From: Thermoplasmatales archaeon SW_10_69_26
Lineage (GTDB): Archaea; Thermoplasmatota; SW-10-69-26
Direction of reading: 5' to 3'
DNA: 51,676 nt
Assembly: GCA_003009755.1 (NCBI GenBank)
Contig: PXUB01000019.1
Coordinates: 22,986-74,661, forward strand
The notes beneath the pieces were generated by a model. That model was not told the DNA's origin, ran no database searches, and saw only the letters and a list, made by a program, of their open reading frames with translations. Positions within the stretch are counted from its first letter, which is position 1, and every line of letters begins with the position of its first letter. The position numbers and the translations under genes are program-made. Positions 34,702-51,522 of this stretch are shown here, piece after piece.

Positions 34702-35421
34702 TCCCCCCCCCCCCCCCCCCATGTCGCCGTGCTCGAGGGGCTGCTCGTTGCCCGGCTTGAGCCGTTCGTCGTTCAGCCGGGTCCCGTTCGTCGAGACCCG
34801 AAGGTCGACCAGCCGGAACTCGCCGTCCCCCTTGAGGATCTCGGTGTTCTGTGCCGACAGGTAGGGATCGTACTGCAGGCAGATCTGGGCCTCCGTGCTG
34901 CGCCCGATGACCCAGCCGCGCCCCTCCGACGGGTCGGGATCGATGTCGCGCAGGTGGTACACCTGGTCGTCCTGGGCTCCCTGCAAGAGGACGAGCTTGG
35001 GTCCCTCGCGCCATTTCGAGCCCGTCTCGTCGACGGAGCGCTCGGTGTTGAAGGGGTCGATCGCGCCCTCGGTCCCGGGAGCCAGCAGTTGGCGAAGCTC
35101 CTTGAGCAGACCGAAGACGGCCGGCTCGTTGACCATGTACTCACGCCGGTCGCGCCCCTGCTGGTTCGGACGGGTCGAGGACCGGACGAGGTCGGATTCC
35201 TCCAGCCGGGTGAGGTGGTGGCGGACGCCTTGGCGGGTGAGCTTGCGGTCTTCGTTCTCGTCCTCGGCCGACCCAGCCGGTGTGAGGTGGATGTCGTCGA
35301 CCGTTCGCGGTTGCTGCAGCTCGGAGACCAATCGCAGACGGTTCGAGGAAGCCAGGGCCCTGAGTTTCGATCCCATCTCTTCCAAATCCTGAGTCCCAGA
35401 TGAGCTCCCCCGCGACTGCAT
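34630..35421 (-). CDS. Winged-helix transcription factor with C-terminal FHA domain
   Basis: 263 residues from ATG 35421, set by a TATA box 22-28 nt upstream. Residues 10-100 are an ArsR-like winged helix (LRALASSNRLRLVSEL, then KLTRQGVRHHLTRLEESDLV). Residues 160-240 are an FHA domain: WVIGRS, then LSAQNTEIL in the place of SxxH, then STNGTRLNDERL. The last strands of the FHA fold are missing: after LEHGD the frame enters a poly-Gly stretch from the G18 run, and the final 27 residues are antisense to the kinase gene. The intact protein would bind DNA and a phospho-Thr partner, plausibly a target of the convergent kinase. Confidence 0.82.
   Translation of the reverse strand: MQSRGSSSGTQDLEEMGSKLRALASSNRLRLVSELQQPRTVDDIHLTPAGSAEDENEDRKLTRQGVRHHLTRLEESDLVRSSTRPNQQGRDRREYMVNEPAVFGLLKELRQLLAPGTEGAIDPFNTERSVDETGSKWREGPKLVLLQGAQDDQVYHLRDIDPDPSEGRGWVIGRSTEAQICLQYDPYLSAQNTEILKGDGEFRLVDLRVSTNGTRLNDERLKPGNEQPLEHGDMGGGGGGRGSPRTAMTDLPPDHLVGVLAPR
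34681..34720. repeat. Hairpin followed by an 18-C homopolymer
   Basis: CGCGGTTC (34681-34688) pairs with GAACCGCG (34694-34701) around a 5-nt loop. After one T come 18 consecutive C (34703-34720). Both converging genes read into it and neither shows its expected end here. It could be a slippage-prone tract, or a place where reads failed and sequence is missing. One extra C would end the kinase at 34760. Confidence 0.8.
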
Positions 35422-35933: not shown

Positions 35934-36006
35934 GGGACAGTAGTTCAGTTGGGAGAACGTCCGACTGAAGATCGGAAGGTCGCCGGTTCGAGTCCGGCCT
36001 GTCCCA
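35934..36006 (+). tRNA. tRNA-Phe (GAA)
   Basis: A full cloverleaf can be drawn: acceptor GGGACAG with CTGTCCC, D stem GTTC with GAAC, anticodon stem TCCGA with TCGGA enclosing CTGAAGA (anticodon GAA), T stem GCCGG with CCGGC around TTCGAGT, discriminator A. No CCA is encoded. Its 3' end is the attachment site of the integrated element. Confidence 0.95.
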
Positions 36007-36007
36007 C
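35990..36007 (+). repeat. attL: tRNA-Phe 3' end used as attachment core
   Basis: Eighteen bases (35990-36007), from the T loop through the acceptor 3' strand and one base beyond, are repeated exactly at 49740-49757. A 16-base part (35994-36009) is also present at 49385-49400. Insertion into a tRNA 3' end that leaves the tRNA intact is the classic mode of tyrosine-recombinase elements. Confidence 0.8.
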
Positions 36008-36043
36008 TTAGGACCTGCAGGGGTCCTGCCCATCGATTCTCAC

Positions 36044-37096
36044 CTAGCTTCCCCCCGAAGTTGTGGGGGCGTTCTGCCAAGCGCGAATCAACCAGTCATC
36101 GCCATGCGAGTGGTGCCACACCTCGACGTTCTTCGCGTAGGTGTTCCGTACCCGTTCCGTCGACTTGTGGCCCAGCCAGTTGGCGATTTGATCGAAGTTG
36201 TAGCCCGCCTTCTCGTCGTGTGTCTGGATGAGACGGGCCGTCGCGCACCAGTGTCGGCAGTGCCTGAGATCGAACCACTCGGCGTGGGGTTTCACCCGGC
36301 GCTTGATCGCCTGCCCTAGGGTCTTCTTCGACGCGAACTCCTCCCCCGTCTCGGGGTTGGGGAACATCGCGTCCGTCTTGGGGTCGAGCTTGGGCCGCCA
36401 GGTATCGATCCAGTTCGTCAGGCTGGCGTGCCGCCGACTGGTTGCTAGCCAGTCGGGCTCGACGTAGACGAGGTTCGGGCGTCCGCTCTTCTTGCGCTGG
36501 ATGAACTCCAGCGTCTGCGACTCCGGGTCGAAGTCGTCCACTCGGAGCGTATACAGCTCGTCGGGACACCGTAGCCCGATGCCGTAGGCGAACGCCAGGG
36601 CGTACTTGACGAAGTGGTGCTCCGGATTCCGGTTGGGCTGAGGTGCATACTGAATCTCGCACAACAGCTCGTGCACCTGTTCCGGGCTGGGAACGTCGTT
36701 CATCGAGCCCGACCCCCCGCCCTTGGGGACGGAGGGCCAGATGTTCTCCGGCAACCCCATGAAGGCCGCGAACGCCTTGATCGCCTTGTCGTCGTTCACG
36801 AGGCCTCCACGGCCCGTGGTGTCGTCGTGGTCCCGACGGTACTGGAAGTACAACCGGTAGCTGGTCACGAGCTCCCAGGCCGTAGACCGGAACTCGACCG
36901 GCTGGGGCTCGTAATTCGCCATGAACTCCCAGTGGGCCAGGTACTTGCGGGTCGTACCGGGCTTCAGGTTGCGTTCGTTGCGGAGATACTGTCGGGCTTC
37001 CCATACTTCCCAGTCCGGGTTAAACCACTCTTCGGCAGGTTCGACCTTGGCTCGGAGCCTGTTCTTGTGGGTCGGTCCCCAGGCTCCGTCGTGCAT
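36044..37096 (-). CDS. Tyrosine recombinase (integrase) of the element
   Basis: 350 residues from ATG 37096, preceded by a GGTGA ribosome site; the frame is open to a GTG at 37210 but that part is low-complexity. The N-terminal part is a SAM-like core-binding domain (residues about 20-125, with TRKYLAHWEFM). The catalytic domain has Arg in GLRCPDEL near 180, Lys in RKKSGRP near 205, HxxR-type motif DLRHCRHWCAT near 290, GHKS near 320 and the nucleophile Tyr in RNTYAK near 330. It should integrate and excise the element at the tRNA-Phe site that lies 37 bp beyond its stop. Confidence 0.92.
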   Translation of the reverse strand: MHDGAWGPTHKNRLRAKVEPAEEWFNPDWEVWEARQYLRNERNLKPGTTRKYLAHWEFMANYEPQPVEFRSTAWELVTSYRLYFQYRRDHDDTTGRGGLVNDDKAIKAFAAFMGLPENIWPSVPKGGGSGSMNDVPSPEQVHELLCEIQYAPQPNRNPEHHFVKYALAFAYGIGLRCPDELYTLRVDDFDPESQTLEFIQRKKSGRPNLVYVEPDWLATSRRHASLTNWIDTWRPKLDPKTDAMFPNPETGEEFASKKTLGQAIKRRVKPHAEWFDLRHCRHWCATARLIQTHDEKAGYNFDQIANWLGHKSTERVRNTYAKNVEVWHHSHGDDWLIRAWQNAPTTSGGS

Positions 37097-37281
37097 ACTG
37101 TCACCGTTCGATGGTCTCGTGTCGTGTGGCGCGGGAGTACCCTGGCTAGGGTGACCACCTCGACTGGGGCCAGTGTCGTCCGGAGCCTTGGACCCTTCGT
37201 CGTGACCCACGGAGGTCCCCAGGGTGGAGTTGAACCACCAGCCCCCGATCCAGACCCCAAGCTGGGCCAGCCTGGGGTTGA

Positions 37282-37555
37282 CCAGGCCTAGGCCTGGGCC
37301 GGCCTGCTGGACGAGAGCCGTTCTCGCCTGGCATTCGCCTGGACAATCCAGCTCACCACCCGTGGCACGGACGGCTCTTCGCCTTCCAGGGTACCAGCCT
37401 ACCGAAGGCAGGTAGGTGAGGGCCGTTCTCAGCCTGGAGTGTCAGGCTGAGGCCTGGTGTTCGGGGGTGCGTATGGGGAGGCCCCTATGGCGGGTTGAAC
37501 CGCCTACCTGGGGATAGGGGCGGATAGAGGAGAGCCTCTACCCTGGGAGGGTAGG
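37282..37555. repeat. Cluster of perfect inverted repeats behind the integrase
   Basis: Noncoding 380 bp (37211-37590) between the integrase and the next gene. It contains a 16-bp palindrome CCAGGCCTAGGCCTGG (37282-37297), CGAGA/TCTCG (37312-37326), CTCAGCCTG/CAGGCTGAG (37429-37452), GGCGG/CCGCC (37490-37505) and CTACCCT/AGGGTAG (37539-37555). Possible roles are a replication origin, recombinase/excisionase binding sites, or structured RNA. Confidence 0.6.
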
Positions 37556-37590
37556 CATAGGATCTCTAAGCCGTCGGTTGACGGCCGATA

Positions 37591-37917
37591 TTACGTCTCG
37601 CTCTCAGGGGTCGAGCTGGGAGCCTCCATTTGTTCTGGGGCTTGGGGGTGGTCCAGCTCGCGCAAGGCCTGGCCTACCTCTTCCAGGCCCTCAGCTAGCT
37701 GACGGGGCCGGCCCATGACCCAGAGGGCTTGACCGGTGTCCTCCCAGGTCTCGTTGCCAGCAATGTCGGTTTGCTGGCGGTGTTTCTGGATCGAGTACAC
37801 CAGCCGCTCTTCCTCTGTGGGGTCCTCAGGTGTCACCCGGAAGAGCATCGGGACGAAGCCAACCCGTCCTGACATGTTGATCGGCTCACTCTTGTCGATG
37901 AGGTCGAAATCAGCCAT
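37591..37917 (-). CDS. Small hypothetical protein coupled to the primase
   Basis: 108 residues from ATG 37917, with GGAGGTGA eight bases upstream. It begins 2 nt after the stop of the primase gene. The sequence has a beta-like start (GRVGFVPMLFRV), a charged middle and a helical, Gln/Glu-rich end. No family recognised. The tight coupling to the primase suggests a role in element replication. Confidence 0.65.
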   Translation of the reverse strand: MADFDLIDKSEPINMSGRVGFVPMLFRVTPEDPTEEERLVYSIQKHRQQTDIAGNETWEDTGQALWVMGRPRQLAEGLEEVGQALRELDHPQAPEQMEAPSSTPESET

Positions 37918-37918
37918 C

Positions 37919-38776
37919 TCAGTTCTCACCTCCTCGCCGGTGCCCAGCCGGGGAGCTTAGGGCCGCCTGCCTGGCCCGGGCTATGGTTCGTCGTAGGTAT
38001 GCAGGCGCTCTCTGGGGCGCTTTCTGGCCCCAGGTGAGGAGGATCTGACCGATCTGGTCATCGGAGAAGCCGGCCTCGGCCATCCCCTTGGCCAGCATGA
38101 ACTCGGCTCCGCTCCGGTCCCTCACACGTCCCTCTCGGAGGGCCCGGACCTTCCTCCGGAATTTGGGGGCTTGTTCCCGGACGAACGCCTCGACGCGGCG
38201 GATGAGTTCGGGGGAGGCCCGGCTGTTGGCTTCAACACGGCCGGGGGGCGGCTGTGTTGCAGCCTGGAGGTCGAGATCGACGGTGAGATCGAGGTCAGCC
38301 AGGTCACAGATCCGCTCGGCATCGCCAGCGAAGGCGTACCGGGTGCCCGAGGGATGGATCGAGGGCGGGGCGACCACCAGGCCGCCTTGGCCCTTGAGGT
38401 CGCCTGCGCCGTGGGGGAGTTGACGGTTAGCGACGGGCTGCTCGGTCCGGGTGTAGACGTGGAATCCCCGACTGGTGGTCACCACGAGCGTCCTCTCGGC
38501 GATGGCCTGCGGAGGCTCGTGGAAGATCTCGTCCGTCCGTTCGGGATTGTCGAGGTCGAGGACGAGGAGGTTCTCGGATGGGGCTCCGGTCAGGACGCCC
38601 AGGTTGGCTTTGGGGCCAACGTTGGCCCACCGCTCGGGGTTGGGGTTCTGCCATCCTAGCCGTAGAGGCCTCTTGCTCTGGGCCCGGAGGGGGACCGTGG
38701 TTAGGTCAAGATCCTGATAGAGCCCCCGGAACCGGAGAAGCGTTTTTGATTCTGGAGCCTCGTGGCGTCTCTGCAT
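37919..38776 (-). CDS. Bifunctional DNA primase/polymerase (prim-pol type)
   Basis: 285 residues from ATG 38776. The prim-pol core is complete: TVPLRAQSKRPLRLGWQ near 20, NLGVLTGAPS near 50, metal-binding LLVLDLDNPE near 62, VVTTSRGFHVYTR near 92, and DLKGQGGLVVAPPSIHPSG near 120. A helical C-terminal part (200-280) follows, with no helicase domain. Such enzymes start replication of archaeal plasmids and viruses. It heads a two-gene unit and is divergent from the zinc-ribbon gene, sharing an A/T-rich promoter region at 38822-38850. Confidence 0.87.
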   Translation of the reverse strand: MQRRHEAPESKTLLRFRGLYQDLDLTTVPLRAQSKRPLRLGWQNPNPERWANVGPKANLGVLTGAPSENLLVLDLDNPERTDEIFHEPPQAIAERTLVVTTSRGFHVYTRTEQPVANRQLPHGAGDLKGQGGLVVAPPSIHPSGTRYAFAGDAERICDLADLDLTVDLDLQAATQPPPGRVEANSRASPELIRRVEAFVREQAPKFRRKVRALREGRVRDRSGAEFMLAKGMAEAGFSDDQIGQILLTWGQKAPQRAPAYLRRTIARARQAALSSPAGHRRGGEN

Positions 38777-38821
38777 GACAAGCCCGCTGGCCCAGCCGAG
38801 GGGGGTGGCCCCCGGCTGAGC

Positions 38822-38838
38822 GCATTCTATTCTATGGC
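38822..38838. promoter_or_regulatory. Divergent promoter region, prim-pol and zinc-ribbon genes
   Basis: ATTCTATTCTATGG is A/T-rich in GC-rich surroundings. Read on the plus strand it lies 20-30 nt before GTG 38851; on the minus strand ATAGAATAG lies about 45-60 nt before ATG 38776. One regulator could control both. Confidence 0.35.
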
Positions 38839-38850
38839 CTGTTATGCGGG

Positions 38851-39846
38851 GTGTCAACCTGCAACGGAATCGACCGGGGGGTGCAACAGATAACCGGGGG
38901 GTTTGCTACATCCGACGAATTTGACCTGGAAAATCCGGAGGGAGAAGGCTTCTGCTTAGGGCGTGAGGCGAAACGGCCCGACTTAGAGCGGGACCACTGG
39001 TGGGAGTACAAGAGCCACGATACAGCCAAAGGGTTCTGGAAGGACTGGCTGCGCGGTCGGTTGTCGGGCGGCAAGCGAGCCCGCTATGCTTCTAAACGGG
39101 AACTTTTCGACGGAGCCTACAAGGGAAGTCCAGAGCGGGCACTCTCGGATCTCCAAGACGCGGGGGAGGTCGATAAGACGAGTGAAGGATGGGCTCTCCT
39201 GCTTCGGGGAGGCGAGGAATGCGTATTCTGCCAGGAGAGTCTGGGGGATCATCTACGGTGTGACTCGGCCGATTGCACCTCGCCTGTCCAAAGATTGCCG
39301 TGTCCAAACTGTGACCATAGGTTCCCGATTGACCCCGTTCCACCCCACTCAGGCCCCTTCCAGTGCCCCTCAGGTCAGGCGGTCTACCGCTACCGGCTCC
39401 CAGAGACAGGTCGAGTCGAGAAGAATCTTGACTGCCCAGATCTAGAATGCGAGGGCACCCTTCGTCCGGAAGCCGGGCGGTTCCGATGTTCGGACTGCGG
39501 CAAGTCAGGCAAACCCGTATCAATCGCCTCCGGAACCCTACCGAAATGTCCGGCTTGCTTCACATTGGTCCGGATTCATGGAGACATCTACTGTCCCAGT
39601 TGTGGCCGAGACTTTCATCGGCTTCACGCGGAAGCTCGTGTCCAGTGGGACAGCGGGGGCGAGACCAAACTCTTCGAATATGATCCGTGGACCGCCAAGT
39701 CGACGGACGAGCTACGGGCTGAGGTCCAGGAAACGCTTGATGGGGCGGGGGTCGAAGAGGTTGGGGATGTGGATCTGAGGGTGACCCGATCGATTCGTCG
39801 TCAGAAGTTCTTCCTGCAGCCGGAGAAAATCTCGCCGCAGTTGTAG
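38851..39846 (+). CDS. Multi-zinc-ribbon protein of the element
   Basis: 331 residues from GTG 38851. The N-terminal 110 residues contain a helical, possibly winged-helix part (RELFDGAYKGSPERALSDLQDAG). From about 125 to 260 there are several Cys pairs of the CxxC type (CVFC, CPNC, CPDLEC, CSDCG, CPAC, CPSCG) forming three or four zinc ribbons. The C-terminus is charged. No family recognised; a nucleic-acid-binding role is likely. It sits upstream of the restriction-modification genes with 128 bp between and could regulate them or act in replication. Confidence 0.72.
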   Translation: MSTCNGIDRGVQQITGGFATSDEFDLENPEGEGFCLGREAKRPDLERDHWWEYKSHDTAKGFWKDWLRGRLSGGKRARYASKRELFDGAYKGSPERALSDLQDAGEVDKTSEGWALLLRGGEECVFCQESLGDHLRCDSADCTSPVQRLPCPNCDHRFPIDPVPPHSGPFQCPSGQAVYRYRLPETGRVEKNLDCPDLECEGTLRPEAGRFRCSDCGKSGKPVSIASGTLPKCPACFTLVRIHGDIYCPSCGRDFHRLHAEARVQWDSGGETKLFEYDPWTAKSTDELRAEVQETLDGAGVEEVGDVDLRVTRSIRRQKFFLQPEKISPQL

Positions 39847-39974
39847 TTGGAGGAGACGCGTCGGAGTTCCCGGCCTCTCCAATGGCCGACCCATGGTCGA
39901 CATAGCCAAGTAGGCTTAGGAGGCTGGGCACGGATATCTGGGCTCCTGGTTGAGCGCTACGGTTGGGGAAATGC

Positions 39975-42819
39975 ATGGCTGATGACAGAATAGATCAGTA
40001 CCGCCACGAGGACAAGCAGAGGAAAAACAACCCCCCGGTGGGTCTCGTTTCTCCCGAAACCGACCAAGATGGGGGACCGACCCGCTACGAGTTCGACCCA
40101 CACCTTGACCCCCAACTGATCTGGAGCGGTAAGAAGAGAACCGAGGACCTGGAAATCCCGACCGTCTCGCTGCACACGCATGAACGAATCGATCCGCAGA
40201 CGATTCTCGAGAAGGTCCGGAAGGAGCCACAGGGACCCCAGCAGATCTCACTCTTCGAAAGCGTCGAGGAAGACCTCCCTCTCCGACAGGCGATTGATTT
40301 CTACGAACACGAGCACGGGTGGTCTAACCGGCTAATCGCCGGAGATTCACTGTTAGTCATGAACTCCCTTCTCCAAAAGGAGGGACTGGCCGACAGCATC
40401 CAAATGGTCTACTTCGATCCACCTTACGGGATTGATTACGGTTCCAACTTCCAGCCATTCGTAGGGGATAGAAGCGTCCCTCACGAGGATGACGAGTACC
40501 TGACGAGGGAGCCTGAGATGGTCCAGGCGTACCGAGACACCTGGGAACTGGGAATCCATTCTTATTTGACCTATCTAAGAGAGAGATTGCGGCTCGTTCG
40601 GGAACTTCTGCCGGAATCAGGTGGGATATTCTTCCAGATCGGGGTCGAGAACATGCATTTCGTCCGCTGCATTCTTGACGAAATTTTCGGCCCCGAGAAC
40701 CATATGGCAACCATCATCATAATGAAACAACAAAGATCCAAGAAGGAAACATTCGACCAGGAAAACGACTTTATACTCTGGTACGCCAAGGACAAGGAGG
40801 AGGCTAAGTTCCGTCCCCTCTATAGAGAAAAGGACGAAGAGCAGATCGAGCAGCAATTCACGAAGATTGAGCTTCCCGATAGGTCAGTGGTCAGCAGAAA
40901 GAAATACCTCAAAGAACACGACAAGATACCCGAGGGCGCACGGCTATTCCATCCTCAAAGCATCTTCTCGCGTAGTGGCTCCGAGAGCACTAGCCAGCCC
41001 TACGAATGGGAGGGAGAGACTTACGAGCCTTCGAGCGGCTACTATTGGTCCACCAACCAGGAGGGCCTAGAGCGCCTTGATGAGCAGGATCGTCTGTTCG
41101 TGTCTAAGAGAGGGAGTACCCTTCGACGGAAGGTCTACCTTGATGAGCGTAGATACGAGCGCCTAACCAACGTCTGGGAAGATTCCGCACCTGGAGGTTT
41201 CAATTCAGAACGTATCTATGTTGTCCAGACCGCTTCGAAAGTGGTGGAGCGCTGCATCAACGCGGCGACGGAGCCTGGGGACATAGTATTCGATCCGACG
41301 TGCGGTTCGGGAACGACCGCCTTTGCGGCCGAGAGGCTTGGTCGGAGGTGGATCACCTGTGATACCTCCAGGGTTGCGGTGAACCTTGCGAAGCAGAGAC
41401 TCCTGACTGCCACTTATGGCTACTACAAGCTTGCAAATCCCAAGAAGGGGGTGACGGGAGATTTCGAATATGAGATCTATGAAGAGCTAAACCTCCGCCA
41501 CCTCACGACCGATGAGGAGCCGGAAGGCCAACCCCTCTATGACAAGCCGATTGAGGACAAATCAAAAGGTGCTGACCGTTGGCTCTCAATAGAGGCTGCC
41601 TTCCCCCTCTGGTCGAACTGACGCGATATGAAGCCAGCCAACGCCCGAGCTAGAGGAACTGAAACTCAGTCTCGGAGACCAAGGGGTCCCTTCAGGCCAC
41701 GAGTTCTGACGGGAGTAGCATTGGGGGTGCAGAGGACGAAAAGGACCCTTGTCGTCCGTGACCGGACGGTCGAGCTGCCGATCGGCGGCACCGAGCGCCC
41801 TCCTCGTTCTCGGTCAACCCGCCTCTCCCGGTTGGCTTGATAGGGTAGATGGGCGGGTCACGGCCCGTTGGCCGCACGAAGCCCGATTGAAAGGCCGCGT
41901 TCAGCACCAATCAAAAAGGCGTATCTCTGGGCCCTTCACCGTGGAGGCAGTACCTTCTCCTCTCGTGAAATCCATCGATGAAATCGGAGGGAAGGAAAAC
42001 CGGACAGTCCCCGTGAGTCACACGGAGGCTGAAAGGCAGTCCGAATGGCGTGACCAACTCTTGGCATCGGGTGTGAAAGGTCCGAATGGCCAGGAGATCT
42101 CCTTCTCGCACATCGAACCCGTCGGAGGGACGGACTACGTTCATGCCCGCGCTGAAACAGACGAGGAAGAGCCTAGGCAGGTCGTCGTTTCATTTGGGCC
42201 CCGCCACGCAGCCCTTGAACCCCGACAAGTGGAGCTAGCATGGCAAGAAGCTCGGCAGCTAAATCCTTCACCGGACATGATCGTTTTCGCCGCCTTCCAG
42301 TTCGATCCCGAGGCTGCGAAGGATATCGACGAGCTAACGTCAGAAAAGGCGGGTATGACGTTCCTAAAGGTCCAGATGGACACGGACCTGCTAACCGATG
42401 ATCTCAAGACTGGCGATTCGGGGGGAGAGAGTTTCTGGTTGATTGGCCAGCCTGACGTTGAGCTGTCAAAGAATGAGGAAGGCTCTTACAAGGTTCGCGT
42501 CAAGGGGTTCGATTACTATAACCCGGCAACGGGGGAGATCGAGTCGGGAGGTACGAAGAAGATCGCGATGTGGATGCTTGACCCCGATTATGACGGACGG
42601 AGCCTCTATCCGAGACAGGTTTTCTTCCCGATCCAGTCAAAGAACTTCGGATGGCAAAACTTAGAGAAATCACTGGATGAGGAAGTCGACCCTGAACGAA
42701 TCGAGGCGTACTCTGGAACAGAGTCGCTTGAATTCGAGGAGGGAGAGCACCAGCGGGCAGCGATCAAAATCGTGGATGACCGGGGCGTTGAAAGCCTCAA
42801 GATTTTGGACCTCGATTGA
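39975..42819 (+). pseudogene. mod: Type III DNA methyltransferase (mod), split by a small insertion element
   Basis: The first part (39975-41567) has the adenine-methyltransferase motifs DPPYGIDYGS near residue 150 and DPTCGSGTTAFAAERLG near 440, target region between. It then enters the insertion and stops at 41621. The second part (41917-42819) is the Mod C-terminal domain, beginning RRISGPFTVEAV and ending VDDRGVESLKIL. Removing 41568-41916 joins codons EDKSK to RRISG exactly in frame, giving about 831 residues, normal for this Mod subfamily. As it stands Mod is cut about 100 residues after motif I; the catalytic part might still fold, but the C-terminal domain is separate. A start inside the insertion (for example 41749) could allow its translation. 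Confidence 0.88.
41568..41908. mobile_element. 341-bp non-autonomous insertion (MITE-like) in mod
   Basis: Flanked by the 8-bp direct repeat AATCAAAA (41560-41567 and 41909-41916). Ends are imperfect terminal inverted repeats: both begin GGTGCTGA and 19 of the first 25 positions match. No transposase; the longest frame inside encodes 70 basic residues (41628-41840) with no family. The GGTG-start and 8-bp duplication resemble IS1- or IS1595-like ends, but the family cannot be fixed by eye. Confidence 0.85.
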
Positions 42820-42820
42820 T

Positions 42821-45577
42821 ATGCCTCAGGACGAGATCAAGAACCTAATCATCAATTCTCCATACGAGGAGCCAGACGGACATTGGCACTATCTAAGGGA
42901 GACGAAGCAGTTCGAGAGGAGAGAGGGACGGCGACCTGCGGGTTATCATTACCGTGCTGGGTCAGAATCCTCGGAGGACCCGGGCGATTTCATTCCATTA
43001 GATACGGTGAACGAGCTGCGAGACAAGGTCCGAGACTGGAGGCAACGAGGATATCCCGGATCAACAGCAGTCACCCGCGAGTTGCTTGAGCACTGGCACG
43101 ATGAAAGCCGGAGACCCAATCCGTTCTTCTTCTGTCAGATAGAAGCCATAGAGACTCTAATCTGGCTACGTGAGGCTCCTGAGGCTGAGAGGGAGAGCGT
43201 TCAGGTGCCAGGCGGACCGGGCAACTTCATCCGCAGATGCTGTAAGATGGCCACAGGAAGCGGGAAGACCGTGGTTATGGCGTTGCTAATCGCCTGGCAA
43301 GCTCTCAACAGCGCAAACCATCCCGACGATCCCCGCTATTCGAAGAACGCCTTGATCATCGCCCCGAATCTTACGATCAAGGAGCAATTGAAGCAACTAA
43401 AGCCGTCGGCCGACGAGAGCGTCTACAAGGAATTCCGAATCATCCCCAAGAGCCTGAAAAAACAATTCTATCAGGCCCGCGTGCTTGTCCAGAACTGGCA
43501 CCAGCTAAACCCTGAACCTCCTTCCCCTGAGGCGAAGGTCGTGAAGGTCAATGAATATCCGGAAAGCGGGGAAGCCTTTGCGCGTAGAGTCTTAGGGTCT
43601 CTTGACCGCGCGGACGATTTGATTGTTATCAATGACGAGGCTCACCACGCTTGGCGGCCGGAAGGAGAGGACACCTCCCAGCAGGATGAAGAGGCGACGA
43701 TTTGGATCCAGGCCCTAGACCGGATTGCCTCGTCAATGGGCTTGAAGACCTGCTACGACTTCAGCGCCACCCCCTATCCGGCCAGCAAGGCGTCCGGCGA
43801 CGTTGAGCTCTTCGACTGGATTGTCTCTGATTTCAACCTCAATGACGCCATCGAGGCTGGACTCGTGAAGACGCCCCGAGTGGTCGTGCGGGACGATTTG
43901 GTCCCGGACGCTGACACCTACAAGTCGAAGCTATTCAACCTGTATAACCAGCCAGAGGTTAAAGACGACCTAGGAAGACGTGCCGACCCGGACGAGCCTC
44001 TTCCAGAGCTCGTCCGGAACGCCTACTACCTATTAGGGTTGGATTGGCAGGAAAAGAAGCAAGCCTGGGAGGAGGCCGGATATCCGACACCGCCTGTGAT
44101 GATTACTGTAGCGAACTTAACGAACACTGCAGCCAGAATCTACAACGAGTTCGTGCAAGGGAAAATCCAGATCGAAGAGCTCGGGGACGAGGAACGGGTA
44201 CTACACGTCGATTCCAGAGTCCTGGACGAAGCTGTCGAGGAGAACGATCCCCGTCAGCTACGAGCTCTCCCGACCGAGAGTGAGGCCCTCGAAAACCTCT
44301 CAGAGGATATGACTCGAAAGGAGAAAGCCGAGCTGCTCCGAGAGCTCGTCAACACTATCGGTGAGCCCGATGGCCTCGGAGGTCATATCCATAACGTCAT
44401 CTCTGTCGGGATGTTGTCAGAGGGTTGGGACACGAACACTGTTACTCACATCATGGGCCTCCGTGCGTTCAGTAGCCAGCTCCTATGTGAGCAGGTCGTG
44501 GGCCGTGGACTGCGGAGGCGCTCCTACGAAGTCGATCCCGAAACGGGGCTGATGACGCCCGAATATGTGAATGTCTTCGGAATCCCCTTCACGTTCCTCC
44601 CTCACGAGACACACGAGGGGTCCGCTCCGGTTGAGGAGGAGCCAAAAACTGAGATCCGGCCGGTCCCGGAGAAGGTCGACCGAGAGCTGAGCTGGCCAAA
44701 CGTAACGAGGGTCGAGCGACAGCTTCAGCCGAATCTAGAATTGGATATGGAAGAGATCGGCGAGCTCACCCTGGATGCCACCGAGATACCGAAGGTTGCC
44801 GAGCTTGCGCCGATGTTGGAGGGAAGACCCCACGAGCTGAATCAAGCGAAGATCGAGTTGAAGGAGCTCGGAGCCAAGAAGAGGCTCCAACGGCTCATAT
44901 TCGAGACGTCTAGAGAGGTCTATGAGAGGGTTGACCCGAACTGGAAAGGGAGTAAGGAAGCTCTCCTCGCTCAGATGATCTCCTTCGTCGAGGACTTCAT
45001 CACCTCAGAGCGTCTTGGCGTCAAGCCGGAGGCCTTGGGTAAAGATCCCGAGCTCCGCCGCGCTATCATCACCCTCCAAATCCGGACGGTCGTGGATCAT
45101 CTCTGGCAGGGGATCAAAGAGGCTCATACCGAGGAGTTGATTCCAGTCGTCGACCAAGATGATCCCGTCTCCTCCACCGGGGATATGGACCCGTGGTATA
45201 CGACGAAACCCACTGGAGAAGCGGAGAAGAGCCATATCAACCGGTGTGTCCTGGATAGCGGATGGGAGATGGAACCGGCCTTCATCCTCGATAACGAGGA
45301 TGACGTGCGTGCCTGGGTGAAGATCGACCACCTGGGGTTTGAGATTCCCTATACGTTTGAGGGCGCATTCCACCACTATCGACCTGATTTCCTCATAGAA
45401 CTGGCAGACGGGCGGAAGCTAATCTTGGAGGTTAAGGGCCAGAAAACGGACAAGGATGAAGCGAAGTGGGAGGCTGCACGGGAATGGGTCGAAGCCGTCA
45501 GTTCATCCGATGAGTTCGGGCAATGGGATTTCGTGGTGGCTTCTGAGCCTGGTGAGATTCACAATATCCTCATATAA
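42821..45577 (+). CDS. res: Type III restriction endonuclease subunit (helicase-nuclease)
   Basis: 918 residues from ATG 42821, one base after the mod stop. Superfamily 2 helicase motifs: Walker A ATGSGKTVV near 143, DEAHH near 276, SATPYPAS near 318, motif V SEGWDTNTV near 530 and VI QVVGRGLRR near 555. The C-terminal nuclease of PD-(D/E)xK type is near 850: RPDFLIEL then LILEVKGQ. Res cleaves DNA with unmethylated sites but needs Mod for recognition, so the split mod should make the system inactive or altered. The gene itself looks intact. Confidence 0.92.
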   Translation: MPQDEIKNLIINSPYEEPDGHWHYLRETKQFERREGRRPAGYHYRAGSESSEDPGDFIPLDTVNELRDKVRDWRQRGYPGSTAVTRELLEHWHDESRRPNPFFFCQIEAIETLIWLREAPEAERESVQVPGGPGNFIRRCCKMATGSGKTVVMALLIAWQALNSANHPDDPRYSKNALIIAPNLTIKEQLKQLKPSADESVYKEFRIIPKSLKKQFYQARVLVQNWHQLNPEPPSPEAKVVKVNEYPESGEAFARRVLGSLDRADDLIVINDEAHHAWRPEGEDTSQQDEEATIWIQALDRIASSMGLKTCYDFSATPYPASKASGDVELFDWIVSDFNLNDAIEAGLVKTPRVVVRDDLVPDADTYKSKLFNLYNQPEVKDDLGRRADPDEPLPELVRNAYYLLGLDWQEKKQAWEEAGYPTPPVMITVANLTNTAARIYNEFVQGKIQIEELGDEERVLHVDSRVLDEAVEENDPRQLRALPTESEALENLSEDMTRKEKAELLRELVNTIGEPDGLGGHIHNVISVGMLSEGWDTNTVTHIMGLRAFSSQLLCEQVVGRGLRRRSYEVDPETGLMTPEYVNVFGIPFTFLPHETHEGSAPVEEEPKTEIRPVPEKVDRELSWPNVTRVERQLQPNLELDMEEIGELTLDATEIPKVAELAPMLEGRPHELNQAKIELKELGAKKRLQRLIFETSREVYERVDPNWKGSKEALLAQMISFVEDFITSERLGVKPEALGKDPELRRAIITLQIRTVVDHLWQGIKEAHTEELIPVVDQDDPVSSTGDMDPWYTTKPTGEAEKSHINRCVLDSGWEMEPAFILDNEDDVRAWVKIDHLGFEIPYTFEGAFHHYRPDFLIELADGRKLILEVKGQKTDKDEAKWEAAREWVEAVSSSDEFGQWDFVVASEPGEIHNILI

Positions 45578-45584
45578 GGAGCAG

Positions 45585-45593
45585 GTTTATATG
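45585..45593 (+). promoter_or_regulatory. Orphan TATA box between res and the KTSC gene
   Basis: GTTTATATG, a strong box 8 nt after the res stop. Transcription would begin near 45615 on the plus strand, where no protein gene lies; it would run antisense into the KTSC gene. The sequence between can form an imperfect hairpin (CCACGGGAG with CTCCCCCGTTGG, about 45607-45653). The reverse reading CATATAAAC is also box-like. Confidence 0.5.
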
Positions 45594-45671
45594 CAAGATG
45601 GTTAGCCACGGGAGCTCTAGTTTTGAGTTCGTCGCTGTTCCTCTCCCCCGTTGGAGTGACTCTTGATCAAT

Positions 45672-45881
45672 CTATAGGCGCCGGTACCGGTAGATTCCTT
45701 TCACGTTCTGGTGGAGGAATTCTCCGTGGGATTCAGCCCTCATCAGGCCCTCATAGACGTGCTTAGGGACATCAAAGTACTGGTAGATAGACCCGTCATT
45801 AAATTCAACCTCAAGCGTCATTTGATCGGCATCATAACCTACCGAATCGATATTGCTGGACTGGACACTATCCCGCTTCAT
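45672..45881 (-). CDS. KTSC-domain small protein
   Basis: 69 residues from ATG 45881, chosen for the GGAGGA site 5 nt upstream. The domain pattern is complete: SSNIDSVGYD near 8, LEVEFNDGSIYQYFDVP near 24, then VYEGLMRAESHGEFLHQNVK and the end YRYRRL. KTSC domains occur alone or fused to lysyl-tRNA synthetase and other proteins; the function is not established. It overlaps the herA stop by 14 nt and follows sir2-herA in the same operon, so it may be a third component of that defence module. Confidence 0.85.
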   Translation of the reverse strand: MKRDSVQSSNIDSVGYDADQMTLEVEFNDGSIYQYFDVPKHVYEGLMRAESHGEFLHQNVKGIYRYRRL

Positions 45882-47733
45882 CGTCTCCTCCAATCTCCTG
45901 AGAGGACCCCCGGCCCCTCCACTTTACGAGGACGCGCTCGTAGTCTTCGTCCTCCAAATCGGAATTCCATCCTGAAGTCGCTTTCTCGTTAACGACCAGC
46001 GGATCATCGCTAGTTGGACGCCGATTTTCGGCGGATTGGTGTATTTTGGCACGCATTGGAATCTGAACGATCTCTCCGAGAACAATCGCCTCTCCAACCC
46101 GAAGCGTTGGGAGGAGTTCAACAAGTTGTGAGAGGCTGTCGGTTGCTCGGGATTTAATCTCCCCGACATCCCCGCCTTTCATACGCATTGCAATGACCGA
46201 TCCGCATTGTGAGAGCATGTCGGAATCAATATCCTCAGGTCGTTGGCTCACGAGCAGGACCCCTAGACCATATTTTCGGCCTTCTCGGACCAACCTGGAC
46301 GCTGCCATGGATGCAGGGGACCCCTTCCCCACTCCCAGGTAACGGTGTGCCTCTTCTAGCACGACAGTTAAGGGTCGCTCTCTCCCGCCCTCGGGGAGTT
46401 CCTGCGACCAATAGAGTGCATCGAAGATTAGGTTCAAGACAGCCCCTACGACAGTATCGAGGACCTCGTCGGGAACGTCGGACAGATCCAGAACCGAGAC
46501 CTTCTGTGGCCCACCGAGCCACTGCTCCAACAATGTATCCAAGTCCTCCTCCACCTCACCTTCGGAATCCGGCCCCCAGGGGCCTGGGCGGAACAGGAAC
46601 TCGTATCTCGGATCGCGAAGCTTTCCCGCAAGGGAGTCCACATTCTGGCTGAGGTTCACGCTTGTCTTCGCCAGATATGGACCTTCGCCTCGTGGAGTTG
46701 CGGTGTGAGGTTTGTACTCGGGGGGTTCCACATCCATTGGATCACCTTCAAGCGGATTTCCATGTTGATCCTCTTTGATGGCCTCTGTCTCCCTGGTTTG
46801 GCCCCCAGCAACCGTGTGAGTCGCGTACACGTCTCGATGAAGCTGGTACCAAAGGTCGTGGACACTGAAGGGGACAGCTGAATCAACCGTCAAGGTCGAT
46901 TCATCTATCCCGGCTAAGTCCTGGTTGTTGACGCTATCTTCCTTGAATTGGGCGACGTACTCTCGGACAAATTGGCGCTCTGCCCCCTCCAGATCGCCTA
47001 ACGTTACGTTGAGAAACCGCTCAAACTCCATCGCCCAATATGGAACGTAGAGGGGTTTTGCGTCTTGCTGGCTCTCGTGGCTGATCGAGAAGGTTTCAGC
47101 ACCCTCGATATCCAGGTCTGTATATTCTCCGTGGATATCTATTATAATGACGCGGGAGGAGAGGAACCTCTCATCGCAGGCGATTGACTCAGTAATTCTT
47201 GAGACTGTTGTCGACTTCCCGGATCCTGTGGCCCCTAGTACCGCACAATGGCGTGAGACGAGTTTGTTCAAGTTGATGTAGGCAGGAGTTTCCGGAGAGC
47301 CAGAAAGGTGGCCAATCTCAATCTCATCTTCGTTTCCGCTTGATGAATAGATTTTTGCGAGGTCATCTCTGGTAACGAGATAGGCTTCGTCACCGATTGT
47401 AGGATACTCGGAGACCCCTCTGGAGAACCCTGTGGGCCCCCTCTTCTCACCCAGTAGTTCGATAGACATCCACCGCTCACCGTATTCCTCGGCGTCCACG
47501 TTTTTAGGTGCAGATCCGGCCCCCACGCTGACGACAACTCCAAACAGCTCGTTGAAACCGAGGGGGATCTTTACGAAGCTCCCTGGTTGGCCCAGACGAT
47601 ATCCCCGCCCTTCGACGAACTTGAGTCCACCAGTTACGCTAGGATCTATCCGGATCCGGACTGTTGAGCCCTCAACATCGACGATAGGGCCAATATAGGT
47701 AGGATCGTCAGTTGTCACCCTGTTGACCCCCAT
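45868..47733 (-). CDS. herA: HerA-family hexameric ATPase/DNA translocase (SIR2-HerA defence)
   Basis: 621 residues. An N-terminal beta-barrel HAS domain lies at about 10-120 (IGPIVDVEGSTVRIRI). Walker A GATGSGKST is near 172, IIIDIHGEY near 205, Walker B VVLEEAHRYL near 475, then SQRPEDIDSDML near 510 and a C-terminal arginine-finger region. A large insertion of about 130 residues (270-400) is charged and unlike housekeeping HerA. It overlaps sir2 by 26 nt. SIR2-HerA pairs are known anti-phage systems in which the HerA ring assembles with SIR2 into one complex with NADase and nuclease activity. Confidence 0.9.
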   Translation of the reverse strand: MGVNRVTTDDPTYIGPIVDVEGSTVRIRIDPSVTGGLKFVEGRGYRLGQPGSFVKIPLGFNELFGVVVSVGAGSAPKNVDAEEYGERWMSIELLGEKRGPTGFSRGVSEYPTIGDEAYLVTRDDLAKIYSSSGNEDEIEIGHLSGSPETPAYINLNKLVSRHCAVLGATGSGKSTTVSRITESIACDERFLSSRVIIIDIHGEYTDLDIEGAETFSISHESQQDAKPLYVPYWAMEFERFLNVTLGDLEGAERQFVREYVAQFKEDSVNNQDLAGIDESTLTVDSAVPFSVHDLWYQLHRDVYATHTVAGGQTRETEAIKEDQHGNPLEGDPMDVEPPEYKPHTATPRGEGPYLAKTSVNLSQNVDSLAGKLRDPRYEFLFRPGPWGPDSEGEVEEDLDTLLEQWLGGPQKVSVLDLSDVPDEVLDTVVGAVLNLIFDALYWSQELPEGGRERPLTVVLEEAHRYLGVGKGSPASMAASRLVREGRKYGLGVLLVSQRPEDIDSDMLSQCGSVIAMRMKGGDVGEIKSRATDSLSQLVELLPTLRVGEAIVLGEIVQIPMRAKIHQSAENRRPTSDDPLVVNEKATSGWNSDLEDEDYERVLVKWRGRGSSQEIGGDDEAG

Positions 47734-48883
47734 TATTCGCTATATCGGAAAGGAATCCCCCCAGCTTCTCAAAGTCGCCAAGCGTACAGGTCGGGCCATC
47801 ATCCGGGCTGGCACCTATTCGGATTTCTAAATCGCCATTTTCAGTGTCATCCCATGCTTCGACTTGGCTTCCGAATACGCCGTGTTCCGGTGCAAGGAGA
47901 TTGAAGTTGCTAACATCCGTGGCTAGGTTCTTTGCCCCTGGGTATTCATCCAGGCTGTTGAACAACAGGCCAAATGCATTGGCGTTCTCATTATTCTGAA
48001 GGGCCCTCCGTAGTAGCGAGTTAATATGTTCATCTCCAAATGAGTACCCACAGATTACGAGGATAGCTCCCTTCGCCCTCAGAAAGGATTCCAGTCGATC
48101 GAACATGACCTGGTAGGGTTGTCGTTTACTCTGGTCGTATTTCCTCTCTGACGGGTGAATGACGCCGCTATTCTGGTGGTTAACAGATGTTCTGTAAATT
48201 TCTCCATCAATCTCAGCCCAATTGATAGAGCCGTGGAGCTTCCACAGGCGAGCCCAGTTTGTCGGAAGTGCGTTAAAATCTAGCGAGGTATCATCCAGGA
48301 AAGCCTGTTCCGTTCCCGTGAATCCGGTAAAATAGGGCACCCGTTCGTCTTCTAGGGCCTCCTCTATGAGTAAATCATAGTTCGTCGTGAAGATGGAGGC
48401 TGGATAGGTCCTTCTGGCATCACGCACCCATGCGGCGAGGTCATGATAGGGTGTTTGTTGGTCTGGGAACTCGGCGGCATCAAGTTCCTCAGTAATTTCA
48501 CTAGAGAGAAGGCGCTCAAGAGCAGACAAGTCATCGTGGGAAATGGCCTCTAGGGCAGATCCGGGCGGGAGACTCTGGAGGAGTCGAAGGGTTTCGAGCA
48601 GCTCCTCAAGGTCAGGATTTCCAGCCTCAGCTTCATCTTCTGAGATGACCCCCTCACCCCAATCAAGGAGCTCTAAAACAGCTGTGAGGGCTGGTTCAAG
48701 CTCGGGGACATCCTGGATGGTGTTTATCGCCCCCCGGGTGAGATCCGGAGTAGGGGGGATAACTGGCTCACCATCTTGACGAACGGCCTGTGGACATCCA
48801 GCCCCCAGGAGGAACCCTAACGGGCGGTCCTTTTCCGAAAGAACATCTCTCAGATTATCCAACTTCGTTCCGAGACGGTGCAA
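47708..48883 (-). CDS. SIR2-domain NADase (SIR2-HerA defence)
   Basis: 391 residues from TTG 48883; no better start is in frame nearby. NAD-binding marks: FLLGAGCPQAV near 25, TTNYDLLIEEAL near 168, LHGSINW near 218, and GYSFGDEHINSLLRRAL near 280. This is the SIR2 form found in prokaryotic defence, without the zinc-binding module of deacetylases. It most likely degrades NAD+ when phage DNA is sensed, starving the cell. The C-terminal 80 residues are a beta-rich region of unknown role. It is the first gene of the sir2-herA-KTSC operon; GATATGTAG about 35-40 nt upstream may be its TATA box. Confidence 0.9.
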   Translation of the reverse strand: MHRLGTKLDNLRDVLSEKDRPLGFLLGAGCPQAVRQDGEPVIPPTPDLTRGAINTIQDVPELEPALTAVLELLDWGEGVISEDEAEAGNPDLEELLETLRLLQSLPPGSALEAISHDDLSALERLLSSEITEELDAAEFPDQQTPYHDLAAWVRDARRTYPASIFTTNYDLLIEEALEDERVPYFTGFTGTEQAFLDDTSLDFNALPTNWARLWKLHGSINWAEIDGEIYRTSVNHQNSGVIHPSERKYDQSKRQPYQVMFDRLESFLRAKGAILVICGYSFGDEHINSLLRRALQNNENANAFGLLFNSLDEYPGAKNLATDVSNFNLLAPEHGVFGSQVEAWDDTENGDLEIRIGASPDDGPTCTLGDFEKLGGFLSDIANNGGQQGDN

Positions 48884-48984
48884 CCCTGGTACTCCCCAAG
48901 GAAGTCAAGAACAGGCCGCTACATATCATTGACGGCGTCAACAGCCGTGGCGAACCCTCCGGTTCCACGTGGCCACCGGCCGGC

Positions 48985-49021
48985 TGGGCAAAACCGCGCC
49001 AGGCATGGGCAAAACCGCGCC
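48985..49021 (+). repeat. Tandem 16-bp repeat, start of a duplicated segment
   Basis: TGGGCAAAACCGCGCC occurs at 48985-49000 and again at 49006-49021 (period 21). The same pair, slightly changed, is found at 51262-51298. In both places it is followed after 60-90 bp by the C-terminal codons of the small HTH gene. Confidence 0.75.
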
Positions 49022-49076
49022 GTCACCGCAGGACCCATGGCCTTGACCTCTGCCCGCTCGCCGCTCAGTCGCCATC

Positions 49077-49262
49077 TCAGAGGCCGAGTCTGCGGCGAAG
49101 CGTCCGCCGGCTGATCCCGTGCTTCTTCGCGGCGGCTCGGATGCTCATCCCGGCCTCCAGATCCTCGCGGACAGCCTCGGTGTCCACCTCGACCCTCGGC
49201 CGGCCGCCTCGGCTCTGGCTATCCTCGTCGCTGGTTGTCTCGCTGTCGCTCACGTCGATCAC
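49077..49262 (-). CDS. Small helix-turn-helix DNA-binding protein
   Basis: 61 residues from GTG 49262; longer frames upstream run through the inverted-repeat array and look random. The N-terminus is acidic Ser/Asp-rich; then GRPRVEVD and a helix-turn-helix, AVREDLEAGMSIRAAAKKHGISRRTLRRRLGL, typical of the Hin/resolvase C-terminal DNA-binding domain. Without a recombinase domain it could be a regulator or a leftover of a serine recombinase. It may bind the inverted repeats that begin about 20 bp upstream of it. A second copy of its 3' part lies at 51352-51402. Confidence 0.6.
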   Translation of the reverse strand: MIDVSDSETTSDEDSQSRGGRPRVEVDTEAVREDLEAGMSIRAAAKKHGISRRTLRRRLGL

Positions 49263-49384
49263 CTTGGAGAAAACGGGGGGAGGCCCCGCCACCGAGGGCG
49301 GGGCTACGGGCTCCGAGCCCACCGATACCGGGGGTTCAACCGGCGCAAATCGATGGGCGATTCCCCTTAGGCCGGGAAGCGCAC

Positions 49385-49400
49385 CCGGCCTGTCCCACTT
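49385..49400 (+). repeat. Second partial att copy, with an inverted copy at 49434-49447
   Basis: CCGGCCTGTCCCACTT equals tRNA positions 35994-36009. Its first 14 bases are repeated in inverted orientation at 49434-49447, so the two form the longest hairpin of the array. Confidence 0.7.
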
Positions 49401-49739
49401 CTCCGATAGTCTCCGACTGCCCCACAGCTTAGCGTGGGACAGGCCGGACGAGCACGAACGACCGCAGACACGGTGCCGATGGGCGTTCGTGCGAAGTTCG
49501 AGACCGCCAGGCCCACCACGCCACGGCGGTCTCGAAGGCCCGCAGAACACGACGCCTCCGCGAAGGCCGGACTCGAATGCACACGGCTCGCGCGATCGGT
49601 GTCGAGCCGTGGCAGCTCCAAGGCCGCCCGACCCCGTCGGCCTTGGACCCGAGTACGAACCGGCCAGCGGATGCCGTAGCGAAGGCCGGTTCGTGCGAAG
49701 TTGGAGGTCGCCGCGATGGTCGTGGAGGGCGACCTCCAA

Positions 49740-49757
49740 GAGTCCGGCCTGTCCCAC
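49740..49757 (+). repeat. attR: 18-bp copy of the tRNA-Phe 3' end
   Basis: Exact copy of 35990-36007; the match ends on both sides. It sets the probable right border of the element. Confidence 0.75.
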
Positions 49758-50106
49758 GTCTTCGAGGCCGATACCTCAGGGAATCCCTTCGGCAGACGGC
49801 CCTGAGCGCTCGCGCTGACCGTGTCGGCCTGCATCGGAATCCCGCTTCGGGGATCCCTGCTTCGCCCCCCTTGTCAGCGACCGCTCAGGTTGGGCGGTGG
49901 CTGCGGGCATTCTGCCTCGGTCCGTCCCTGTCGGATCAGCCTCTCGAAGCGTTGAACCGATCGACGTTTGGCTCATCCCGCAGCGATCGCAGGCCTGCTC
50001 GTCGGCCGCCCCGCGAGCTGACGCCGCTGGTCCCCAGCTGGCGCCGGCCCGACACGATCAACCCCCCACTCCTTTCCTCTGCCTTCCCCTTCCGGTGCTT
50101 GCTTCG

Positions 50107-51222
50107 ATGCGAACCGAGCACCGGATCCACGTCAGCGACGCGCGCGAGATGACCGAGCTGGAGGAGGGCTCGGTCCAGCTCGTCGTCACCTCGCCGCCCT
50201 ACCCGATGATCGAGATGTGGGACGAGCTGTTCGCCGACCTGGATCCGGCCATCGGCGAGGCGCTGGCGGCCGAGGACGGCGAGCAGGCGTTCGACCGGAT
50301 GCACGCCCTGTTGGCTCAGACGTGGAGCGAGGTCCACCGCGTGCTGGAGCCGGGCGGGATCGCGTGCATCAACGTGGGCGATGCCACTCGCAGCCTGGCC
50401 GACAGCTTCCGGATGTGGCCCAACCACGTGCGCGTGATCGAGGCGTTCACCGAGCTGGGCTTCCAGCCGCTGCCGGACATCCTGTGGCGCAAACCAGCGA
50501 ACAGCGCGGCGAAGTTCATGGGCTCGGGCATGCTGCCGCCCAACGCCTACGCCACGCTCGAGCACGAGTACATCCTCGTCTTCCGCAAGGGCAGGCGTCG
50601 ATCCTTCGAGCCCAACGCCGACCGCCGCTACGAGGCGGCCTACTTCTGGGAGGAGCGCAACCAGTGGTTCTCGGACGTGTGGATGGACGTCCGCGGGACC
50701 CTGCAGGACTTGGACGACTCTGAGCTACGAGAGCGCTCAGCGGCCTTCCCGTTCGAGCTCCCCTATCGGCTGATTAGCATGTACACAGCCTACGAAGACA
50801 CGGTTCTCGATCCTTTCTGGGGGACCGGGACGACGACGATGGCCGCGATGGCCGCTGGCCGAAGTTCTGTCGGTTACGAGATCGAGGACGAGTTCACGAG
50901 CTACTTCGAGGAGCGCGTAACGGACATCCAGAGGCTTTCGCGCCAAGTCGGGCTCGACCGCCTTCAGCGCCATCGGGAATTCGTGGAGGAACGCCAGGCG
51001 GACAGGAAGTCCTTGAACTACGACGCTGAGAACTACGAGTTCCCTGTGACGACGAAGCAAGAGAAGAACCTGCAACTCTACGCGGCTGACGATGTCCGAG
51101 GATCTTCCGACAGGTACGTTGTAGAGCACACCCCCCTTTCGAGCCAGGATGGAGGGACCGTCCCCTCAGGGCCTAACGGGCGACAAGAGGACGGACAGAC
51201 CTCCCTCTCGAGGTCGTTGTGA
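50107..51222 (+). CDS. Solitary DNA methyltransferase (N4-cytosine/N6-adenine type)
   Basis: 371 residues from ATG 50107. Motif IV TSPPYP near residue 29 comes before motif I DPFWGTGTTTMAAMAAG near 237, the order of the beta class; TSPPY is common in N4-cytosine enzymes. A target-recognition region lies between about 100 and 230. The C-terminal 100 residues are charged and lower in GC than the front of the gene, so the last part may be of other origin. No restriction gene is beside it. It lies 350 bp outside the attR copy and could be host DNA or part of an older insertion. Confidence 0.87.
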   Translation: MRTEHRIHVSDAREMTELEEGSVQLVVTSPPYPMIEMWDELFADLDPAIGEALAAEDGEQAFDRMHALLAQTWSEVHRVLEPGGIACINVGDATRSLADSFRMWPNHVRVIEAFTELGFQPLPDILWRKPANSAAKFMGSGMLPPNAYATLEHEYILVFRKGRRRSFEPNADRRYEAAYFWEERNQWFSDVWMDVRGTLQDLDDSELRERSAAFPFELPYRLISMYTAYEDTVLDPFWGTGTTTMAAMAAGRSSVGYEIEDEFTSYFEERVTDIQRLSRQVGLDRLQRHREFVEERQADRKSLNYDAENYEFPVTTKQEKNLQLYAADDVRGSSDRYVVEHTPLSSQDGGTVPSGPNGRQEDGQTSLSRSL

Positions 51223-51261
51223 TCCACGCCGCGGTTCTGCGAGCGGTCTGGGGCCGAAGAC

Positions 51262-51402
51262 TGGGCGAAACCGCGCCAGGCATAGGCGAAACACCGCGTA
51301 TCTCGCCTGACCTTCCCCTGCCGGCCGGCCGCTCGTTGCTCACTCACCATCTCAGGGTCTGAGCCTCCGCCGCAACGTCCGCCGATCGATCCCGTGCTTC
51401 TT
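51262..51402 (-). repeat. Second copy of the repeat/HTH-gene end
   Basis: Resembles 48985-49140: TGGGCGAAACCGCGCC, AGGCAT, a second decayed copy, then on the minus strand the codons for a helix ending AVKKHGIDRRTLRRRL and a TGA at 51352-51354. The front of the HTH gene is missing: at 51403 the similarity stops and another gene's remnant begins. Confidence 0.7.
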
Positions 51403-51522
51403 CACGGCTACGAGCTCGATCCCGAGCTGGTGGCTTACGTCGACCGGCGCGTGGATGACGTCGACAGCCTCTCGCGCCGGGTGGCGGCCCAGGTCACACC
51501 CAGCCCAGCAGCGTGGCGGTGA
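51403..51522 (+). pseudogene. 3' remnant of a plus-strand gene
   Basis: An open frame of 39 codons plus TGA reads like genuine protein (GYELDPELVAYVDRRVDDVD, then SLSRRVAAQ). It begins exactly where the HTH repeat ends and overlaps the end of the convergent membrane gene by 29 nt, as real convergent genes do. The front of the gene seems replaced by the repeat. Family unknown. Confidence 0.4.

Follow-up and report, generated by a model that had tools for sequence, protein, structure and literature searches.

Hairpin arrays at tRNA and protein gene ends of a Thermoplasmatales archaeon carry direct and inverted copies of the adjoining gene end

The tRNA-Phe locus and its apparently displaced array

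We analysed a window of 51,676 nucleotides from Thermoplasmatales archaeon SW_10_69_26, in which a tRNA-Phe (GAA) gene lies at 35934-36007 on the plus strand (Rfam RF00005, 73.5 bits; ARAGORN). Directly behind it runs a 13.4-kb island (36008-49384, no strand assigned), a tRNA 3'-end attachment-site integrated element bounded by attL in tRNA-Phe and by attR. Its genes encode an integrase, a prim-pol, a type III-like methylase, a BPTD_3080-family restriction enzyme, HerA and SIR2. The integrase (P0004, 36044-37210, minus strand), a tyrosine integrase of PF00589, directly adjoins tRNA-Phe; the whole protein matches this family at an E value of 1.5e-5, just under the curated cut-off, and in the PF00589 search of the genome it matched over the cut-off, at C19:59113-59667. 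Within this archaeal tRNA-integrated island, the BPTD_3080-family restriction enzyme (1003 bits) adjoins the HerA-SIR2 gene pair at 42677-48883. Just upstream of tRNA-Phe, 32503-35403 encodes a 966-aa protein with a serine/threonine kinase domain and weaker matches to the MAD6 and PglW defence kinases.

At the far end of the island, the sequence-only reading had described a dense array of perfect hairpins at 49283-49879, and the hairpins themselves were borne out. Counting arms of at least 8 and loops of 3-40, we found nine perfect inverted repeats at 49261-49900 (640 bp), whereas 300 dinucleotide shuffles averaged 0.66 and never exceeded 5; this is the densest 640-bp stretch for such repeats anywhere in the window. 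The recomputed arms, loops and sites agree with those first described. Folding of 49434-49759 yielded -198.5 kcal/mol, compared with -144.5 +/- 5.2 in 60 shuffles (z -10.4), and DNA parameters gave a z of -10.3; an 18-bp helix, pairing about 49434 with 49759, can enclose some seven arms in one multi-branched fold. The range as first drawn, however, takes in three different things. Positions 49283-49384 are the last part of the integrated island, 49385-49757 make up the tRNA-Phe array itself, and 49801-49889 hold a dispersed long-hairpin repeat (family A, no strand assigned) that is separate from the array.

By sequence comparison, the array copies T, the last 18 nt of tRNA-Phe (GAGTCCGGCCTGTCCCAC, 35990-36007, plus strand). 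It opens with attR, the displaced tRNA-Phe 3' end and first T copy (CCGGCCTGTCCCAC, 49385-49398, plus strand); this 14-mer is present in tRNA-Phe at 35994-36007, at the array start at 49385 and again at 49744. Identity between attR and attL extends by TT past the 14-mer, giving a 16-nt repeat (CCGGCCTGTCCCACTT) at 35994 and 49385. The att copy that had been noticed directly against a hairpin is real, and it is the tRNA-Phe 3' end. An inverted copy of that end, T' (GTGGGACAGGCCGGAC), follows at 49434-49449, and then the first GAG-hairpin-CGAA module, located by inverted-repeat search, with hairpin 1 at 49452-49492 and hairpin 2 (TTCGAGACCGCC/GGCGGTCTCGAA) at 49497-49536. A second inverted copy (GGCCGGACTCGAA, 49565-49577) extends into the tRNA T loop and precedes the hairpins CACGGCTCG/CGAGCCGTG (49582-49611) and TCCAAGGCCG/CGGCCTTGGA (49617-49647). 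The array ends with a second GAG-hairpin-CGAA-hairpin module (49651-49739; stems 49655-49694 and 49701-49739) and T2, which repeats all 18 nt of T exactly and in direct orientation (GAGTCCGGCCTGTCCCAC, 49740-49757, plus strand); the inverted copies, hairpins and modules have no strand assigned. In Rfam, at gathering and relaxed thresholds, only tRNA-Phe reaches threshold and nothing convincing falls in the array.

These repeats show that the array at 49385-49757 belongs to tRNA-Phe, of which it would be the displaced 3' flank. The repeats are read directly, and the simplest history that we infer from them is one of displacement by the island. The array would first have lain directly 3' of tRNA-Phe; an integrase-bearing defence island would then have recombined at the tRNA-Phe 3' end, leaving attL on the tRNA side and attR on the array side, now 13.4 kb apart.

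The small Hin-like HTH gene that had been remarked upon as flanking the array has no demonstrated link with it, lying inside the island and not beside other arrays. Its reading frame (HTH_psq/HTH_28-like) occupies 49077-49259 on the minus strand, and a DNA search placed its only good second copy in the same window. This decayed copy lies at 51237-51410, beyond the methylase gene, with 75% identity over 150 bp, and the HTH pair brackets the array and the methylase at 50107-51222.

Gene-end arrays across the genome and phylum

Between about one third and one half of the tRNA genes, and a few protein genes, are followed by similar arrays in this 2.82-Mb draft genome (49 contigs, about 95% complete, with gaps; gene calls home-made). 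The genome carries archaeal markers, namely an Orc1/Cdc6 protein and an intron-containing tRNA-Tyr, and its 30S S3 protein scores over the archaeal/eukaryotic cut-off and under the bacterial one. A search of the genome with its own array turned up partial copies, dispersed and numbering in the dozens; about thirty matches at E <0.001 came from R1, a model of two hairpins. Across an 851-kb sample, about a third of the genome, perfect inverted repeats with arms of at least 10 number 891 per Mb in intergenic DNA (109 expected) and 181 per Mb in coding DNA (150 expected). Six of the ten densest arrays start at a tRNA 3' end, and hairpins per 300 nt average 2.14 downstream of tRNAs versus 0.52 upstream, among the 42 tRNAs with a canonical T loop that were kept after doubtful ARAGORN tRNAs had been filtered out. 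Since so many tRNA 3' ends carry arrays, the replication origin that had been suggested for the window's hairpins is disfavoured.

The units follow a common order: gene end T, loop, T', hairpin, GAG, hairpin, CGAA and T, repeated. They are gene-free and measure about 65-130 bp. T is formed by the final 16-20 nt of the gene alongside; in tRNAs it most often begins in the T loop and stops at the discriminator base, and among 35 T copies the most frequent start is at tRNA positions 57-58 (12) and the most frequent end at 73-74 (17). The loop after T spans roughly 9-36 nt; T' often extends back to tRNA position 52-53 and is often followed by a short GAACC/GGTTC hairpin, and the linkers read GA(G) and (C)GAA. 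The hairpin module is common to arrays at different genes, for example those of Phe, Met and Thr. Its stems show compensatory changes at 7 pairs in a small alignment of six sequences, with 95.5% of cells paired. Family A, with about 25 partial copies in the genome, has compensatory changes at 13 of its 31 pairs (34 cells; 0 of 500 shuffles). In both the module and family A, compensatory change indicates stems under pairing constraint.

Hairpin loops often read GAGC-NNN-GCGA (loci L111, L206, L209 and L120), as does one in a genome of another class (L248), and such loops could stack as tandem G-A pairs. About seven family A copies appear to sit within elements that have inverted repeats (TAGCCTGCCGGACTCGATG...) at their ends, and several of these begin right at a stop codon; copies of this family were seen at L003, L004, L006, L007, L009, L012, L013, L021 and L022.

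Strong folding (z -10), covariation and the position of arrays directly after tRNAs in several classes could also point to an RNA function for the tRNA 3' trailer, in which T' would pair with the tRNA 3' half or with a downstream T copy and so act as a switch, decoy, terminator or processing element. A palindrome in Methanopyrus kandleri has been proposed as a tRNA maturation signal (PMC5217627), which lends this reading a precedent. We nevertheless consider it improbable: many tRNAs of the same genome have no array, that of tRNA-Phe has survived 13.4 kb away from the gene, arrays occur at CDS ends as well, and folding is equally extreme with DNA parameters. A strand test on G-U versus A-C mismatches gave 3 versus 1, too few to separate RNA from DNA.

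The source of T and T' was examined with a control in which each tRNA's end was sought behind every other tRNA. Inverted copies occur behind 13 of 42 cognate tRNAs, where 0.61 were expected at 12 nt or longer and 0.15 at 14 nt or longer; direct copies of at least 14 nt likewise occur at 13 of 42 cognate tRNAs, against none from other tRNAs. Wherever T' reaches tRNA position 57, the local A or G is matched (10 of 10). This comparison shows that T and T' match the local gene and not other tRNAs.

Protein genes can be served in the same manner. In the window, an alpha/beta-hydrolase gene that ends at 21971 (minus strand) carries at its 3' end a second array of the same grammar (21760-21990, minus strand), in which the gene's last 20 nt recur in two further exact direct copies. 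Each of the three identical 20-nt ends finishes at the stop codon, and the stretches that separate them hold inverted copies and diverged loops. At a peptidase M48 gene (L106), a 17-nt stem arm lies wholly within the last codons. Protein-gene arrays are rare, at 5 of 561 genes (1 and 0 in the controls), and direct gene-end copies at CDSs show no excess (6 versus 6 in the control).

To gauge the breadth of the pattern, we sampled four genomes from the same class and six from other classes; signals there were less strong than in this genome yet exceeded the non-cognate control. In the same class, direct copies of at least 12 nt were found at 9 of 53 tRNAs (0.42 expected from the non-cognate control) and inverted copies of at least 10 nt at 5 of 53 (0.67 expected); in the other classes, inverted copies of at least 12 nt were found at 3 of 33 (0.28 expected). 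Two loci in other classes (L248 and L228) arrange their parts in the same order, with hairpins unrelated in sequence, and the R1 module sequence occurs in none of 292 other genomes of the phylum because, unlike the layout, the hairpin sequence is species-specific. Together, these results suggest that the layout, which seems wider than the sequence, is the more widespread of the two. A pattern search of 84,980 genomes gave nine matches, mostly coding or chance, such as one coding stretch in several Bacteroidota, and viral contigs gave none. The open-access literature searched holds no description of a gene-end hairpin array architecture, and no described family with these array features was found there.

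Possible origins: insertion, fold-back replication or known mobile families

The account that we find best, and hold to be somewhat probable, combines an array anchored at a gene end, its separation from tRNA-Phe by an island, and the insertion of small units that restore the gene. As to how the units arise, we infer a process and favour insertion, with fold-back template switching as the main rival. Small non-coding units would enter a gene at its 3' end, with a gene-end copy remaining on the gene side; the gene would stay intact, and older ends would be pushed outward. By analogy with integron attC, the variable but paired hairpins may represent a folded single strand recognised by the machinery, for which the leading candidate enzyme would be a tyrosine recombinase that works in trans. 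If units were inserted site-specifically at the T loop, both the boundaries and the restoration of the gene would be explained, and T loops are known integrase cores, for example in mycobacteriophage Ms6 (PMC1762012).

Insertion is supported by the direct and inverted tRNA-Phe copies, local templating, the T boundaries and the downstream hairpin excess, as well as by the same module at different tRNAs, the grammar at CDS ends, the compensatory stems and the occurrence in other classes. Against it, no recombinase is linked to the arrays: the genome contains only three tyrosine integrases in a search for PF00589, each adjoining its own tRNA. T' is not accounted for by simple integration, the units are gene-free, many arrays (such as L111 and L206) look like plain tandem duplications, protein-gene arrays are rare, and the signal is weaker elsewhere in the class. 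The two integrases outside the window, L203 (C2:33474) and L205 (C1:122312), lie beside tRNAs (Gly and Glu), and that of L203 is split over two frames.

Replication could produce such units as a by-product, with no dedicated enzyme or function. A fold-back template switch at the T arm would make T' and keep the stems perfect, slippage would multiply the units, and gene conversion through shared T-loop sequence would spread the module. A host polymerase would suffice for this, and many units are plain tandem copies. T' reproduces local sequence exactly in inverted form, two-sided stem changes outnumber one-sided G-U changes (34 versus 3 cells), and template switching is documented to create and mend perfect hairpins (PMC8794818). 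Moreover, no mobile-element enzyme turned up among those searched (reverse transcriptase, Cas1 and Y1). Alone, however, this process does not explain why T copies cluster at tRNA positions 57-58 and 73-74, it leaves the fixed GAG/CGAA linkers at unrelated loci unexplained, and the three CDS-end copies are identical up to the stop codon despite differing adjoining loops. We judge it rather unlikely, although insertion and template switching may act together.

Remains of a known mobile family, whether integron cassettes, REP elements, a casposon/CRISPR-type insertion, a retroelement or a MITE, would fit the variable-stem hairpins, the direct repeats at tRNA ends, the dispersed copies and the presence of family A inside inverted-repeat-bounded elements at several loci. 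We consider such a descent highly improbable, as there is no Y1 transposase, Cas1 or reverse transcriptase, no attC core and no cassette gene. Reverse transcriptase (PF00078), Cas1 (PF01867) and Y1/RAYT transposase (PF01797) each gave no match in the genome, about 95% complete, with control genomes positive. By inspection of the alignments and units, GTTRRRY / RYYYAAC attC cores are not conserved; the conserved unpaired bases are GAG and CGAA. The sequence-only reading had proposed a recombinase-target or integron-like array. Repeated variable-stem units at a recombination site were indeed found, but integron membership fails on the lack of a conserved attC core, the gene-free units and the lack of an array-linked integrase.

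Three specific routes were also rejected. Reverse transcription primed by a tRNA and stopping at m1A58, attractive because T copies start at 57-58, is disfavoured by the lack of a reverse transcriptase match; target duplication by Cas1 or a casposon is disfavoured by the lack of a Cas1 match, and an IS200/605 or REP origin by the lack of a Y1 match.

Significance and comparison with known systems

Insertion of small units at gene ends leads to a broader proposal, which we put forward tentatively as possible but short of probable: the units may constitute a new self-propagating non-coding archaeal DNA, in which each hairpin unit enters a tRNA or protein gene at its 3' end and rebuilds that end from local sequence, direct and inverted, so that arrays grow outward. 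The 3' ends of tRNAs are classic landing sites of mobile DNA, and the sequence just behind them is rarely examined. Because the unit takes its sequence anew, at every locus, from the adjoining gene end, such arrays would escape repeat finders that seek shared sequence. If units truly insert and restore the gene, they would reflect an unrecognised recombination activity; if fold-back replication makes them, they would offer a natural system for how perfect hairpins arise and persist. Additionally, islands landing in between suggest a route by which arrays may come to lie far from their tRNA.

Elements with archaeal integrases of the SSV/pNOB8 type leave attachment-site repeats of tRNA 3' ends. 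The arrays resemble these repeats in their direct copies of the tRNA 3' end, which start near the T loop and stop at the tRNA end, but their units are gene-free, about 65-130 bp long, accompanied by inverted copies and found at many tRNAs and some protein genes. With integron attC/CALIN arrays they share tandem sites that lie next to a recombination point and have stems that vary but remain base-paired, whereas here there is no GTTRRRY core, cassette gene or identified integron integrase, and the units copy the adjacent gene end. REP/BIME/REPIN sequences and MITEs are similar in their dispersed short palindromes, module pairs and tetranucleotide-like linkers; in contrast, the array unit is mostly locus-specific (T and T') and there is no RAYT/Y1 enzyme.

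In mitochondrial double-hairpin and repetitive hairpin-forming elements, we know of no direct and inverted copies of neighbouring gene ends. These elements are nonetheless comparable as gene-free, apparently mobile hairpin modules (PMC2800124). In Methanopyrus kandleri, a palindrome lies about 10 bp downstream of half the tRNAs (PMC5217627); it is likewise an archaeal hairpin shortly 3' of many tRNA genes, but it is single and short, with a shared sequence, and not an array of copies of each tRNA. Hairpins formed by template switching reflect a mutation process that predicts neither fixed linkers nor gene-end boundaries, yet this process accounts for the origin and upkeep of perfect inverted copies (PMC8794818).
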